From assembly GCF_022808775.1 (NCBI RefSeq), contig NZ_JAKZLA010000005.1, forward strand, positions 1 through 64,000: 64,000 nucleotides of DNA. Reading direction: 5' to 3'. The translations under genes were made by a program, and so were the position numbers. Shown in pieces: positions 43,023 through 64,000 of this stretch; the stretch's first letter is position 1, and each line of letters begins with the position of its first letter. Under the pieces are notes generated by a model that searched no databases, was not told the DNA's origin, and saw only the letters and a program-made list of their open reading frames with translations. Origin of the DNA: Geothrix terrae (GTDB lineage Bacteria; Acidobacteriota; Holophagae; Holophagales; Holophagaceae).

Positions 43023-43700
43023 TCAGCAGCGCTTCAGCACCTCGGCCACGCAGCGCTCGATGCCGACCCAGACATCCGACAGCCGGGCGTCATCGAACAT
43101 GTAGGCCGGTGTGGTGACGAGCTTGCAGGCCTCGTCGATGACGATCTCCCGCGAATCGGGCGTGTCCTTGTGGTGCTGGCCCAGCTTGTTCACGGCCGCG
43201 GCGCAGCCCTCGTCATTGCCCAGAGTTAGGTCGGCGGAAGCCCGGCCGGAGAGCGCCAGGGCCACCAGGGCCGGGGCGATGCAGATGGCGCCCACGGGTT
43301 TCTTCGCGTCGAAGAAGGCCCGCACGAAGGCGGCCACATCGGGCCGCACGTCGGCTTCGGCGCCCTTGAAGGCAAAGCTGCAGTGGTTCTTGGCGACACC
43401 GTACCCGCCAGGCATCACCAGGGCGTCGTAGTCGGTGGCCTTGGCCTGAGCCAAGTCCAGGCACTGGCCCACCCGGGCGATGCGGCTGGACTCCTCCAGG
43501 ATGTTGCGGGTGGCGCCGGGCACGGGCTGGCCCGTGACGTGGTTGATGACGTGGTGCTGGTCCGCGTTGGGCGCGATGCACTGGAAGGCCGCCCCGTGCT
43601 GATCCAGGGCCAGCAGCGTGAGCACCGCCTCGCGCACCTCCGCGCCGTCCAAATGGCCGCAACCGGCCAGCAGCACCGCGACCTTGGGGGTCTTCGCCAT
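43023..43700 (-). CDS. elbB: ElbB/ES1-family glyoxalase-like protein
   Basis: A 225-residue DJ-1/class I glutamine amidotransferase-like protein of the ElbB (ES1) family. It has [20 protein letters not shown] (about 7-26), [23 protein letters not shown] and [17 protein letters not shown], with the nucleophile Cys in AICIAP. E. coli ElbB has weak glyoxalase activity and a genetic link to isoprenoid synthesis. AGGAGGCTCCC precedes the ATG. It lies 16 bp upstream of the acyl-CoA dehydrogenase gene on the same strand. Confidence 0.9.
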
Positions 43701-43745
43701 GGGAGCCTCCTGATGGGTGGGTCGATTATCCCGCGAAAGACAAAC

Positions 43746-43822
43746 CGCCAACCGCAGAGAACGTGGAGAGCGCAGAGGAAAAACATTCCTTCCTCCGCGT
43801 TCTCAGCGTTCTCCGCGGTGAG
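43746..43822. repeat. Palindromic copy of a dispersed repeat
   Basis: Two 30-bp arms, 43751-43780 and 43790-43819, are inverted copies (25 of 30 matching) separated by 9 bp. The unit is ACCGCAGAGAACG followed by GGAGA/CGCAGAGGAA-type sequence. A related unit is encoded in the 3' end of glyQ (63269-63304, minus). It fills the gap between the divergent elbB and aminotransferase genes and would form a long hairpin in RNA. Confidence 0.8.
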
Positions 43823-43847
43823 CCAGCGGTTCGATTAACCTAGCCCC

Positions 43848-45005
43848 ATGCACCTTTCCTCGCGCCTCCCGCATGGTTTCGAGCCCAACGCCCTGTCGGC
43901 GATGCTGGTCCGCCTGCGGCGGGAGGGCCGGGAGGTCCTGGATCTCACGGTGTCGAACCCCACCCGCTGCGGGTTCACCTATCCCGAGGCGGAGATCCGC
44001 TCGGCGCTGTCCACGCCCGCGGTGCTGGCCTACGATCCCGATCCGATGGGTTCCCGGGCCGCCCGGGAGGCCGTGGCGACCCACCACGATCACGGCCTGC
44101 GGGCGGAGGACCTGCTGCTCACAGCCTCCACCAGCGAGGGCTACAGCCTGCTCTTCAAGCTGCTGGGCGATCCCGGCGACGAGATCCTGGTGCCCAGCCC
44201 CAGCTACCCGCTCTTCGAGTGGCTGGCGCGCCTGGAAGGCCTGCACGCCCGGCCCGTGCCCTCCTACTTCCATGACCGCTGGCACCTCGACCTGGGCGCC
44301 ATGGAGGGCGCGGCGGGCCCCCGCACCCGGGCGGTAGTGGTGGTGAACCCCAACAATCCCACGGGACACTTCCTGTCCAGGGCCGAGTGGGACGGTCTCA
44401 CGGCCCTCTGTGCCCGCCGGGGCCTGGCCCTGCTGGTGGATGAGGTCTTCGCGGACTACGCCCTGGAAGCTCCAGCGGACCGGCTCCCCACGGCCCTGGA
44501 GGATGCGGCGCCGCCCTGCCCGGTCTTCATGCTGTCAGGCCTCAGCAAGGTGGCGGCCCTCCCGCAGCTCAAGCTGGGCTGGATCGCCGTGCGCGGCGCT
44601 GGTGCCGAGGCGCACCTGGAGGCTCTGGCCTTCCTGGCGGACCAATACCTGTCCGTCTCCGCCCCGGTCCAAGCCGCGGCCCCCGCCCTCCTGGCCCTGG
44701 CACCCGCGGTCCGCTCCCAGGTGCGCGCGCGGCTCTCTGTCAACCTCGCAACCCTGGATGCCGCGCTCGCCGGGTACCCCCACCTCACCCGGCTGCCCGT
44801 GGAGGGCGGCTGGTCCGTCCTGCTGCGCCGCCCTGCCGTGGACGCGGATGAGGCCTGTGCCCTGCGCCTGCTCGAGCAGGCAGAGGTGCTCACGCACCCG
44901 GGTTCCTTCTTCGACCTGCCGGGGGACGGCCACCTGGTGCTGAGCCTGCTCACTCCGGAAACGAACTTCCGGGAAGGCCTCAACCGGATTCTTCCGATCC
45001 TCTGA
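43848..45005 (+). CDS. PLP-dependent aminotransferase, class I/II
   Basis: A 385-residue fold-type I aminotransferase. It has LDLTVSNPTRCGFTYP (about 28-43), LTASTSEGYSLLFKLLGDPGDEILVPSPSYPLFEW, VVVNPNNPTGHFLS, LLVDEVFADYAL and FMLSGLSKVAALPQLKLGWIAV with the Schiff-base Lys in SGLSK. The motif set fits aspartate/alanine/aromatic aminotransferases; substrate cannot be chosen. It ends 17 bp before the DUF4178 gene, so it could belong to the same transcript. Confidence 0.92.
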   Translation: MHLSSRLPHGFEPNALSAMLVRLRREGREVLDLTVSNPTRCGFTYPEAEIRSALSTPAVLAYDPDPMGSRAAREAVATHHDHGLRAEDLLLTASTSEGYSLLFKLLGDPGDEILVPSPSYPLFEWLARLEGLHARPVPSYFHDRWHLDLGAMEGAAGPRTRAVVVVNPNNPTGHFLSRAEWDGLTALCARRGLALLVDEVFADYALEAPADRLPTALEDAAPPCPVFMLSGLSKVAALPQLKLGWIAVRGAGAEAHLEALAFLADQYLSVSAPVQAAAPALLALAPAVRSQVRARLSVNLATLDAALAGYPHLTRLPVEGGWSVLLRRPAVDADEACALRLLEQAEVLTHPGSFFDLPGDGHLVLSLLTPETNFREGLNRILPIL

Positions 45006-61167: not shown

Positions 61168-63240
61168 CTATTGCCAGAGGCTGAAGTCCGCCACACGTAG
61201 GAAGGCCTGGCGGAGGCGGTGGAGGAGGCTCAGGCGGGTGGCGCGGAGGGCGGGGTCCTCGCACTTCACCATGACGGCGTTGAAGAAGGCTTCGAGGGGA
61301 TCCGCCAACTCAGCGAGGTTGTTCAGCGTGACAATTATGTCGTGCTGGGTTTCCACACGATGCAGGTGTTGAATCAGGTCGATCTCCGCAGGCTCCACAA
61401 GGAGCGCGGCCTTGAAGTCATTCAGGGGAGCCTCGTCCTTCAGGATGTTGCCGATCCGTTTGGCACTCTGCCCAAGAATGGCAAAACGGGGATCCTCGCT
61501 GAAGAGGGACAAATTCTCGCAGCGCAGCTTCAGATCCACCAGATCCATCCATCCGACCGCCATCGTCGACCGACGGACGGAACCCACGTACTTCGCCAGT
61601 TCCAGCTGGTAGGCCACGCGGTCTTTGAAGAAGGTCAGCAGGGCCTCGCGGGTGTCGGCCTCGGGCTTGGTGGCCTTCGGAGCCACGACCTTGAGGGCCG
61701 CCTCCACCAGGTCCGCCAGGGTCAGAGGCCAGCCCTGCTCCCAGAGGATGCGGACGAGGCCCTGGCCAGCGCGGCGCAGGGCGAGAGGATCCTTGGAGCC
61801 GCTGGGAATGAGGCCCACGGCGAAGCAGCCGGCCACCGTGTCCAGCTTGTCGCAGAGGGACAGCAGGCAGCCCATGGGCGTGCCGGGGATGGCGTCCTCG
61901 GCGCCGACGGGCCGGTAGTGCTCCTTGACGGCCTTCCACACCTCCTCGTGGGCGCCCTCATGCTTGAGGTATTCGCCGCCCATGACGCCCTGCAGCTCGG
62001 GGAACTCGCCCACCATCAGCGTGCGGAGGTCGCACTTGGCCATGCGGGCGGCCTCGAGGGCGCGGTCGATGTGCTCGTCATCCGTGGAGAGACGCCTGGC
62101 CAGCGCCTTGGTGAGGGCCACCACGCGGCCTGTCTTGTCGTGGTAGCTGCCCAGCTCGCGCTGGAACGTGAGCGCCTTGAGCTTCTCAAGCCGGTCGGAC
62201 AGAGGATGCTTCCGGTCCTCCGCGAAGAAGAACCGGGCATCGTAGAGGCGCGCCTTCAGCACCCACTCGTTGCCGGCCTTCACGAAGCCCGCCGGATCGT
62301 CCGTGCGGTTGGCGGCGGTGAGGAAGAAGGGCAGCAGGGCCCCGTCCGGACCCTCGATGCAGAAGCTCTTCTGGTGCTCGCGCAGGCTGGTGACCAGCAC
62401 CTCCTTGGGCAGCTCCAGGAAGTCCGCCGGGAACTCGCCGCGCACGATCTTGGGGAACTCCACGATCTCCGCCAGGGTGTCCAGCAGCTCCGCGTCCGCC
62501 ACCACGCGGCCGCCCGCTTCGGCGGCCAGCTGGTCCAGCTGCTGGGCGATGCGCGTCCGGCGGCCTTCGAGCCCAGCCACGACGCCGGCCGCCTCCAGGG
62601 CCGCCTCGTAGACCTCAGGCGATGCGATCTTCACCGGCTCGGGATGCTGGCGGTGGTAGAGCCGATGACCCCAGGTGGTGGACGTGGCCGCCACGCCATC
62701 CACGGTGATGGGCACCACCTGGTCCCCCAGGAGGCAAAGGATGTTGCGGATGGGCCGCACGAACTCGAATTCGGAGTTCCCCCAGCGCATGGCCTTGGGC
62801 ACGTGCAATCCGGCGATGAGCCCCGGCAGCGCCTCTGCCAGCAGGTCCGCCGTGGGTCGTCCCTGCTTCGTGATCGTCACCACCGCGCAGGGCTCTTTCT
62901 TGCCGGCGGGCTGCTCGAAGCGCACGGCACCGAACTCCACGCCCCACTTCTCCGCGAACTTCAGCCCCTGGATCGTGGGCTGGCCGTCCTCCCCCACGCA
63001 CATGCGCTGGGGCGGGCCGACCTGGGTGTCGGTCTGATCGGGCTGGGATGCGGGCAGGCCCGCCCCTCGCCATGCCAGCTTGCGTGGGGAGAAGAAGATC
63101 TCGAGGCCGGAGGTCACGAGGCCCTGCCCCGCGGCCCAGGCCGAGAAAGCCATGGCGAACTCATCGGTCAGCGGCTTCAGGAACCGCGCCGGAATCTCCT
63201 CGCAGTGCAGCTCGAGCAGGAAGGTCTTCGCGCCGCTCAC
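61168..63240 (-). CDS. glyS: Glycyl-tRNA synthetase beta subunit
   Basis: GlyS is the beta subunit of the bacterial alpha2-beta2 glycyl-tRNA synthetase. The 690-residue protein has LLELHCEEIPARFL at the start, PKAMRWGNSEFEFVRPIRNIL (about 165-185), LLDTLAEIVEFPKIVRGEF, EVLVTSLREHQKSFCIEG and the DKLDTVAGCFAVGLIPSGSKDPLALRRAGQGLVRIL signature, then a DALR-like C-terminal domain. The GTG start overlaps the glyQ stop (GTGA). Confidence 0.96.
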   Translation of the reverse strand: MSGAKTFLLELHCEEIPARFLKPLTDEFAMAFSAWAAGQGLVTSGLEIFFSPRKLAWRGAGLPASQPDQTDTQVGPPQRMCVGEDGQPTIQGLKFAEKWGVEFGAVRFEQPAGKKEPCAVVTITKQGRPTADLLAEALPGLIAGLHVPKAMRWGNSEFEFVRPIRNILCLLGDQVVPITVDGVAATSTTWGHRLYHRQHPEPVKIASPEVYEAALEAAGVVAGLEGRRTRIAQQLDQLAAEAGGRVVADAELLDTLAEIVEFPKIVRGEFPADFLELPKEVLVTSLREHQKSFCIEGPDGALLPFFLTAANRTDDPAGFVKAGNEWVLKARLYDARFFFAEDRKHPLSDRLEKLKALTFQRELGSYHDKTGRVVALTKALARRLSTDDEHIDRALEAARMAKCDLRTLMVGEFPELQGVMGGEYLKHEGAHEEVWKAVKEHYRPVGAEDAIPGTPMGCLLSLCDKLDTVAGCFAVGLIPSGSKDPLALRRAGQGLVRILWEQGWPLTLADLVEAALKVVAPKATKPEADTREALLTFFKDRVAYQLELAKYVGSVRRSTMAVGWMDLVDLKLRCENLSLFSEDPRFAILGQSAKRIGNILKDEAPLNDFKAALLVEPAEIDLIQHLHRVETQHDIIVTLNNLAELADPLEAFFNAVMVKCEDPALRATRLSLLHRLRQAFLRVADFSLWQ

Positions 63241-64000
63241 TTGGCACCTCCCTTCCCGGCCACCGTGCTTTTCTCCGCGATCTCCGCGTTCCCTGCGGTT
63301 GGCGTTTTCCCGTTCTCGAACTCGAGGTACGCCCGAGCGCAGGCACACGCCAGGTCGCGCACGCGCTTGATGATGCCCGGCCGCTCGGTGGTGCTCACGG
63401 CGCCGCGGGCGTCCAGCACGTTGAAGGTGTGGCTCATCTTCAAGGCCTGCTCATAGGCGCTGAGGAAGTGGCCGTGGTCCTTGAGCAGCCGCCAGCCTTC
63501 CTTCTCGAACGATTCGAAGAGGGTGCGATGCAGGTCCAGGTCGGCGTGCTCGAAGCTGTAGGCGCTGAGCTCGAATTCCTCCCGCTGGCGCATCTGGCCA
63601 TAGGTGATGGGGAACACGCCGTCGTCGGTGGTCACCTCGCCGTGGATCAGATCGAAGATGTTGTCGTAGCCGCCCAGGAACATGCAGATGCGCTCGATGC
63701 CGTAGGTCAGCTCGGCGCTCACCGGCCGGCAGTCCAGGCCGCCCACCTGCTGGAAGTAGGTGAACTGGCTGATCTCCATGCCGTCCAGCACCACCTGCCA
63801 GCCCACGCCCCAGGCTCCCAGGGACGGCGACTCCCAGTTGTCCTCCTCGAAGCGGAGGTCGTGCTTGGAGAGGTCGATGCCCAGAGCCTCCAGGCTCTCG
63901 ATGTAGAGATCCTGCACCTTGGCGGGGCTGGGTTTGAGGATCACCTGGAACTGCAGGTGCTTGTAGACGCGGAAGGGGTTCTCCCCGTAGCGGCCGTCCG
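63237..64000 (-). CDS. glyQ: Glycyl-tRNA synthetase alpha subunit (5' end outside window)
   Basis: GlyQ carries the catalytic class II core. The N-terminus lies beyond the right edge; the visible part begins [25 protein letters not shown] and continues with [32 protein letters not shown]-type sequence (here [20 protein letters not shown]), [18 protein letters not shown] and a C-terminal helical end. The last ~26 residues (from [17 protein letters not shown]) are not family sequence and are encoded by a copy of the dispersed repeat. glyQ and glyS are translationally coupled. Confidence 0.95.
   Translation of the reverse strand, partial: [253 protein letters not shown]
63269..63304 (-). repeat. 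Dispersed-repeat copy inside the 3' end of glyQ
   Basis: On the minus strand it begins CGCCAACCGCAGGGAACG and matches the left arm of the palindrome at 43746 in about 32 of 37 positions. It encodes part of the glyQ tail (NANREN-like in other frames, here GNAEIAEK) without breaking the frame. Confidence 0.75.

Follow-up and report, generated by a model that had tools for sequence, protein, structure and literature searches.

A low-copy palindrome of Geothrix terrae as a gene-less form of arm-GxxExxY-arm elements: a REPIN/RAYT-like reading

Several described systems come close to the repeat considered here. In the REPIN/RAYT system (Bertels and Rainey 2011, PMC3116915), RAYT genes are described as present in a single copy and seemingly unable to move by themselves. 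In Geobacter metallireducens, the class 2 sites consist of three tandem copies of TCTCCGTS[Y] arranged as opposite-strand pairs at variable distance, and they were read as binding sites of a global regulator of the IHF/HU type (Aklujkar et al. 2009, PMC2700814). The intervening sequence of 23S rRNA with its S23p ORF has replaced a small hairpin loop and is thought to be selfish (PMC4990558), while the Rickettsia palindromic elements, about 150 bp in length, insert in frame inside genes and are translated (PMC10969869).

The window analysed here, a stretch of 64,000 nucleotides from Geothrix terrae, contains an intergenic palindrome and a separate single arm at the end of glyQ (Table 1). In the main reading proposed here, with a probability of about 0.74, the repeat would serve as terminal inverted repeat in a mobile element of small size that carries a GxxExxY gene, the gene-less forms would be derived from it, and the GxxExxY protein would be the mover.

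Table 1. Positions of the repeat copies and neighbouring genes in the window
Feature	Position	Strand	Basis or remark
Whole palindrome including outer stem AACCGC...GCGGTT	43742..43831	.	sequence, fold, genus comparison
Left arm of gene-less palindrome	43751..43780	+	sequence, fold; unit in common with own-genome GxxExxY arms
Right arm of gene-less palindrome, inverted copy	43790..43819	-	sequence, fold; 25/30 complementary to left arm
elbB (isoprenoid biosynthesis glyoxalase ElbB) ORF	43023..43751	-	flanks palindrome on one side
PLP-dependent aminotransferase gene	43848..45005	+	flanks palindrome on other side
Single arm, translated in GlyQ C-terminal tail (..KTPTAGNAEIAEK..)	63270..63309	-	pattern match, blast, genus comparison
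glyQ (glycyl-tRNA synthetase alpha subunit), 3' part; 5' end outside window	63237..63944	-	NCBIfam/Pfam

The window palindrome and its copies in the genome

The left arm of the palindrome is made of three 9-bp units, ACCGCAGAG AACGTGGAG AGCGCAGAG, followed by GAA and with ACC at the outer end, and direct comparison with the right arm confirmed the 30-bp inverted pairing at 25 of 30 positions that a sequence-only reading of this DNA had described. The palindrome folds as RNA at -53 kcal/mol with a z-score of -8.3 (compared to 200 shuffles) and as DNA with a z-score of -6.4. With an arm pattern allowing up to 3 mismatches, the palindrome and the glyQ copy were the only matches in the window, none being expected from 100 shuffles. 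The imperfect arms were not picked up by a repeat search at default settings, and no Rfam family matched in the window at gathering scores. The listed TTG start of elbB (43751) abuts the palindrome, its likely start being an ATG near 43701.

In the genome of the same organism (3.43 Mb in 14 contigs, 97.7% complete) the repeat is low-copy, with about five loci recovered by blast: the palindrome, the glyQ arm, a full palindrome 3' of folK (C8:440179-440247), another at C12:44673-44762, and, at C8:441156-441622, two arms about 0.4 kb apart with a GxxExxY gene between them (C8:441213-441563). The palindrome and the glyQ arm are thus copies of one dispersed repeat, as previously proposed, and the genome-wide count, a check named beforehand, does not uphold chance similarity. 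The glyQ copy comprises one arm only, 85% identical to the palindrome over 40 bases by blast and, in agreement with the earlier claim, in frame in the last codons of the gene (...GKTPTAGNAEIAEKSTVAGKGGAK*); it would represent one stranded arm of an element.

The C8 unit measures 0.46 kb and its inter-arm space is filled by a single 127-aa ORF, identified as GxxExxY by TIGR04256 (E = 1.4e-40) and PF13366 (PDDEXK_3; E = 1.4e-39). On C7 the genome has a second GxxExxY gene, whose inverted flanking arms are built of another unit, AGCGGAGGGA. As in a MITE, the terminal inverted repeats of the window palindrome are in common with those of a gene-bearing element (the arms of L019). In most cases gene-less arms match, above shuffled controls, those flanking a GxxExxY gene of the genus, and the best match of the window arms is the gene of their own genome. 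The window palindrome is best explained as a gene-less, MITE-like form of an arm-GxxExxY-arm family. This explanation extends the sequence-only reading in that the repeat is now seen as the terminal part of a family of mobile elements with a gene of their own.

GxxExxY proteins, their arms and the probable movement of the elements

The AF2 model of the GxxExxY protein has a pLDDT of 94.1, and residues D67, E77-x-K79 and Q91-xxx-Y95 are invariant or nearly so, with E27 in the GxxExxY motif also conserved. The pattern D...ExK...QxxxY is that of RecB/Cas4-like PD-(D/E)XK nucleases, and both the PF13366 profile and the motif place the protein in this superfamily. The nearest folds, all middling, were SSO0001 (a Cas4 protein, Z 9.0), restriction nucleases and Hjc (Z 6.6), in a list where the absence of a given family carries no evidential weight; Foldseek matches were weak (best E = 0.04) and no solved homologue was found by sequence. 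The assignment rests on Pfam, motif and middling Z-scores. GxxExxY is a predicted nuclease that may recognise the arms.

Inverted arms within 250 bp flank 131 of the 155 GxxExxY genes examined in bacteria and archaea, compared to 6/393 in a shifted-window null. The arms were present at 28/30 loci of the phylum (best 30 loci), at 66 of 81 loci of a broader set (80 GTDB loci in many phyla including archaea, and one viral contig; shifted-window null 6/349 in a first run and 5/276 in a second), at 21/28 loci of subfamily 2 (GFLEKVYENAL type) and at all 16 further loci of the genus. Control flanks of aminotransferase and glyQ genes gave 0/57, and those of queF, which has palindromes in its neighbourhood, 2/30. 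The 24 of 155 genes lacking arms in the inverted-repeat test may reflect short flanks, decay or true absence. Each arm is a tandem array of 9-11-nt units, two to four in number and for the most part of the form C(A/G)C-NN-AG-NN(N). ACC points outward at 117 loci, with the reverse polarity at 9.

At the level of whole genomes, GxxExxY was present in 48 of the 54 genomes with the arm pattern versus 90 of 342 others (p = 8e-19), and a reversed arm pattern used as control occurred in 0/396; the six genomes with the pattern and no detected GxxExxY include some drafts. The gene was found in 138 of the 396 sampled genomes of the phylum, about a third, and occurs in numerous further phyla, whereas a control set of E. 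coli gave no GxxExxY above the cut-off. The idea of a phage or plasmid gene was rejected, the family being nearly absent from such replicons (7 hits among 72,556 plasmid records, none among 50,697 phage records and one viral contig), as was a defence-system gene, with no PADLOC match. The upstream arm at L019:2696-3120 and at comparable loci, with its GGAG/GAGG units, lies directly before the GxxExxY start codon and could act as its ribosome-binding site.

The arm unit varies with the protein. In the loci that could be classed, GAT-ending units were confined to the GF/Y-type motif (15/15) and AG-ending units to the GLL-type motif (85/85), 16 further loci being unclassed. On the protein tree the unit class changes 12 times versus 29 in shuffles, a difference to be read with few independent changes and a poorly resolved tree. 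Protein pairs at 60-70% similarity can carry different units, and outside the table of classed loci, L304 and L310 combine a GFLE-type protein with CACGAAG arms, a misfit to the two-class rule, while L299, from the same GFLE-type subgroup, has the unit CGCAGATG. The two-class rule is thus not absolute. Within the genus, arm similarity and protein similarity are correlated (r = 0.50, 0/5000 permutations), in part through shared descent at orthologous sites. In the genome G087, the palindrome at elbB and the arm in glyQ find their match in that genome's own two GxxExxY genes, L300 and L299.

The complete element, arm, GxxExxY gene and arm, spans about 0.41-0.5 kb. Among close relatives, two copies at unrelated sites, L040 and L042, are 85% identical over 497 bp, from arm outer edge to arm outer edge and with no homology beyond, and the same edge-to-edge homology at unrelated sites was observed for L042/L052, L072/L080, L105/L108 and L124/L052. 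Because homology between unrelated sites ends at the arm edges, which is the strongest evidence, the arm-gene-arm structure as a mobile unit is well supported at the sequence level. No target-site duplication was seen by eye at elbB, at queC-queF or at the borders of the unrelated-site copies, where the sites have diverged. Many copies in the genus occupy orthologous sites, hence movement would be slow or old. Whole-element similarity also crosses phyla, L124 from Chloroflexota and L052 from the genus of the window being alike at 69% over about 470 bp, with alignments less complete, as expected, for more distant pairs. This suggests, even though plasmids and phages are nearly devoid of the gene, that the elements have spread horizontally between distant phyla, including archaea.

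A mechanism consistent with these observations can be proposed, in which GxxExxY would recognise the arms cognate to it, probably in hairpin or cruciform form, and would cut at them. Repair would then set copies of the palindrome elsewhere, mainly at gene ends and at hairpins between genes. The enzyme role of GxxExxY in this movement is inferred.

Sites across the genus and translated arms

Comparison of the genus at queC-queF reveals several states of one site. The two genes abut or overlap in G142, G027, G053 and G402, where the site is empty; an element with an intact GxxExxY gene is present in G000, G398, G087, G133 and G252; G212 has an internally deleted GxxExxY gene, an intermediate of the MITE type; and gene-less palindromes, built of another unit (CACAGATT or CGCAGATG), are found in G404, G372, G403, G244, G414 and G405. 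Where an insert precedes it, queF has acquired a short leader that contains an AGGA-like motif.

At the spot 3' of folK (L145-L174), most genomes of the genus have a palindrome, with differing units, while several species without one have an ordinary GC-rich hairpin there, which suggests either a hot spot or rapid replacement. Since this spot has either palindromes of varied unit or an ordinary hairpin, insertion at, or replacement of, pre-existing hairpins is plausible by analogy with the intervening sequences of rRNA. In the elbB gap, the window palindrome is shared with two sister species and missing from most of the genus, and many species have no insert, while some species have a palindrome of another unit, GGTCGCGGAAGAC, where the window has its CGCAGAG palindrome; this unit is similar to the arms of another GxxExxY lineage (L309). 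The elbB palindrome in a sister species is decaying without compensation in the stem, and the idea of an intergenic hairpin maintained by selection was dropped for this reason.

The sequence-only reading had further proposed that such a repeat at gene ends is a source of new C-terminal tails, and comparison of relatives bears this out for three genes, since the tails of GlyQ, QueC and FolK are arm-coded in some species. The GlyQ tail is arm-coded and of the TAENAESAEK type in G000, G398, G027, G212, G053, G228, G142 and G409, is coded by another arm unit (types STDSTDGTDSK and TADGADAADAK) in G372, G182, G087, G405, G399, G244 and G410, and is free of arms in G065, G166, G236, G413, G133, G106 and others of the genus, so that no conserved protein tail exists. 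QueC ends in KTANRGER* or KTANRGEC* with an arm and in ...LKV* without, and FolK in ..RNAHR*, ..NANRRER* or ..ITADGADGRR* with an arm and in ..VIPRN* without. Acquisition of arm-coded C-termini by GlyQ, QueC and FolK is supported by these comparisons. Since the arm has no stop in the frame concerned, a copy overlapping a stop codon would be translated and would give the host protein a new tail. The presence-absence series at glyQ, queC and folK in a single genus lets the fate of new protein tails be traced directly.

Alternative explanations and relation to known systems

The possibility was considered that the repeats are bidirectional terminators or mRNA-stabilising hairpins under selection, alike only through convergence of GC-rich stems. 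The ordinary GC-rich hairpin 3' of folK in species without a palindrome agrees with it, but no terminator-like site was found at the window palindrome, the unit also occurs in distant phyla, the sister-species palindrome decays as described above and the reversed control pattern has zero matches. This explanation is very improbable, the least credible of all. Slightly better placed, and still highly improbable, are binding sites of a global DNA-bending regulator of the IHF/HU kind. The class 2 description from G. metallireducens (PMC2700814) fits the present repeat in unit and inverted pairing, and arms are frequently found at gene ends. Such sites leave unexplained, however, why a gene-bearing unit found at unrelated places ends exactly at the arms, why they are present or absent at orthologous sites, why sister species have different units at one site and why the unit is tied to the GxxExxY subfamily.

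It is also conceivable, if unlikely, that the palindromes are older and spread independently, with GxxExxY as a passenger or homing gene entering their loops. Homing endonuclease genes are situated in their own cut site, and a nuclease gene between its arms would reproduce this layout; moreover, gene-less palindromes outnumber GxxExxY gene copies in some genomes. The pre-entry state predicts a gene-less palindrome of the AG unit at queC-queF, yet none was found in 30 genomes; the half-deleted copy of G212 indicates the opposite direction, and the homology of unrelated-site copies takes in both arms. The mobile element ending in these arms remains the preferred reading.

A similar layout was found beyond GxxExxY. 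Genes of TIGR02436, a four-helix-bundle family of 23S rRNA intervening-sequence proteins, here located outside rRNA (L235-L264), have inverted arms of tandem 7-8-nt units at 29 of 30 loci in the phylum (null 0/56), with many arm units that differ from the GxxExxY ones. Such a layout suggests that arm-gene-arm elements form a wider class. We tentatively advance, at somewhat under even odds, a class of bacterial and archaeal transposable elements in which the loop of a palindrome carries a small gene, the arms are made of short tandem units and movement involves no known transposase, with GxxExxY and S23/IVS-protein branches, whose gene-less leftovers would explain part of the so far unexplained dispersed repeats of environmental genomes and would recurrently create C-termini.

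In the open-access literature, no report linking the repeat to a GxxExxY gene was found (an earlier description elsewhere is possible), the GxxExxY name has passing mentions only, in two papers, its Pfam and TIGRFAM accessions returned nothing relevant, and the repeat sequence used as a query returned unrelated papers only. The repeat type has been known since 2009, as a regulator site in Geobacter, and its gene link is apparently unreported. As the gene of a mobile palindrome, GxxExxY would account for a widespread type of dispersed repeat, would provide a second, non-HUH example of a partnership like that of REPIN and RAYT, and together with its arms would offer an enzyme and a substrate that can be tested as a pair and that vary naturally in specificity.

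Compared with known systems, the G. metallireducens class 2 sites are of the same repeat type, and their description, in the parts available to us, mentions neither a gene between the pairs nor mobility. The intervening sequence of 23S rRNA (PMC4990558) is likewise a small gene within a complementary-ended element, but unlike GxxExxY, S23p is not a nuclease and is located in rRNA. The Rickettsia elements are also palindromic repeats translated in frame, whereas those described here are 70-90 bp palindromes or single 30-40-bp arms, lie at gene ends and have a gene-bearing partner element.

The closest resemblance is to REPIN/RAYT (PMC3116915), with short, spaced inverted repeats that form hairpins, are dispersed and come in several unit types per genome; the window repeat, two inverted repeats with a short spacer, conforms to this. 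As there, each repeat type is tied to one protein gene adjoining such repeats and specific to one protein lineage, GxxExxY standing in the place of RAYT, and the elements found here are chromosomal rather than plasmid- or phage-borne. A RAYT itself was rejected as mover in the own genome, which has no Y1_Tnp (PF01797) match, nor do 23 of the 26 genus genomes. The differences are a PD-(D/E)XK nuclease-family protein instead of an HUH/Y1 transposase, a gene situated inside the element between its arms, and, as the unrelated-site copies indicate, a gene-bearing form that probably moves, unlike RAYT. Taken together, the repeat is best read as part of a REPIN/RAYT-like mobile palindrome system in which a nuclease-family protein replaces the HUH transposase.
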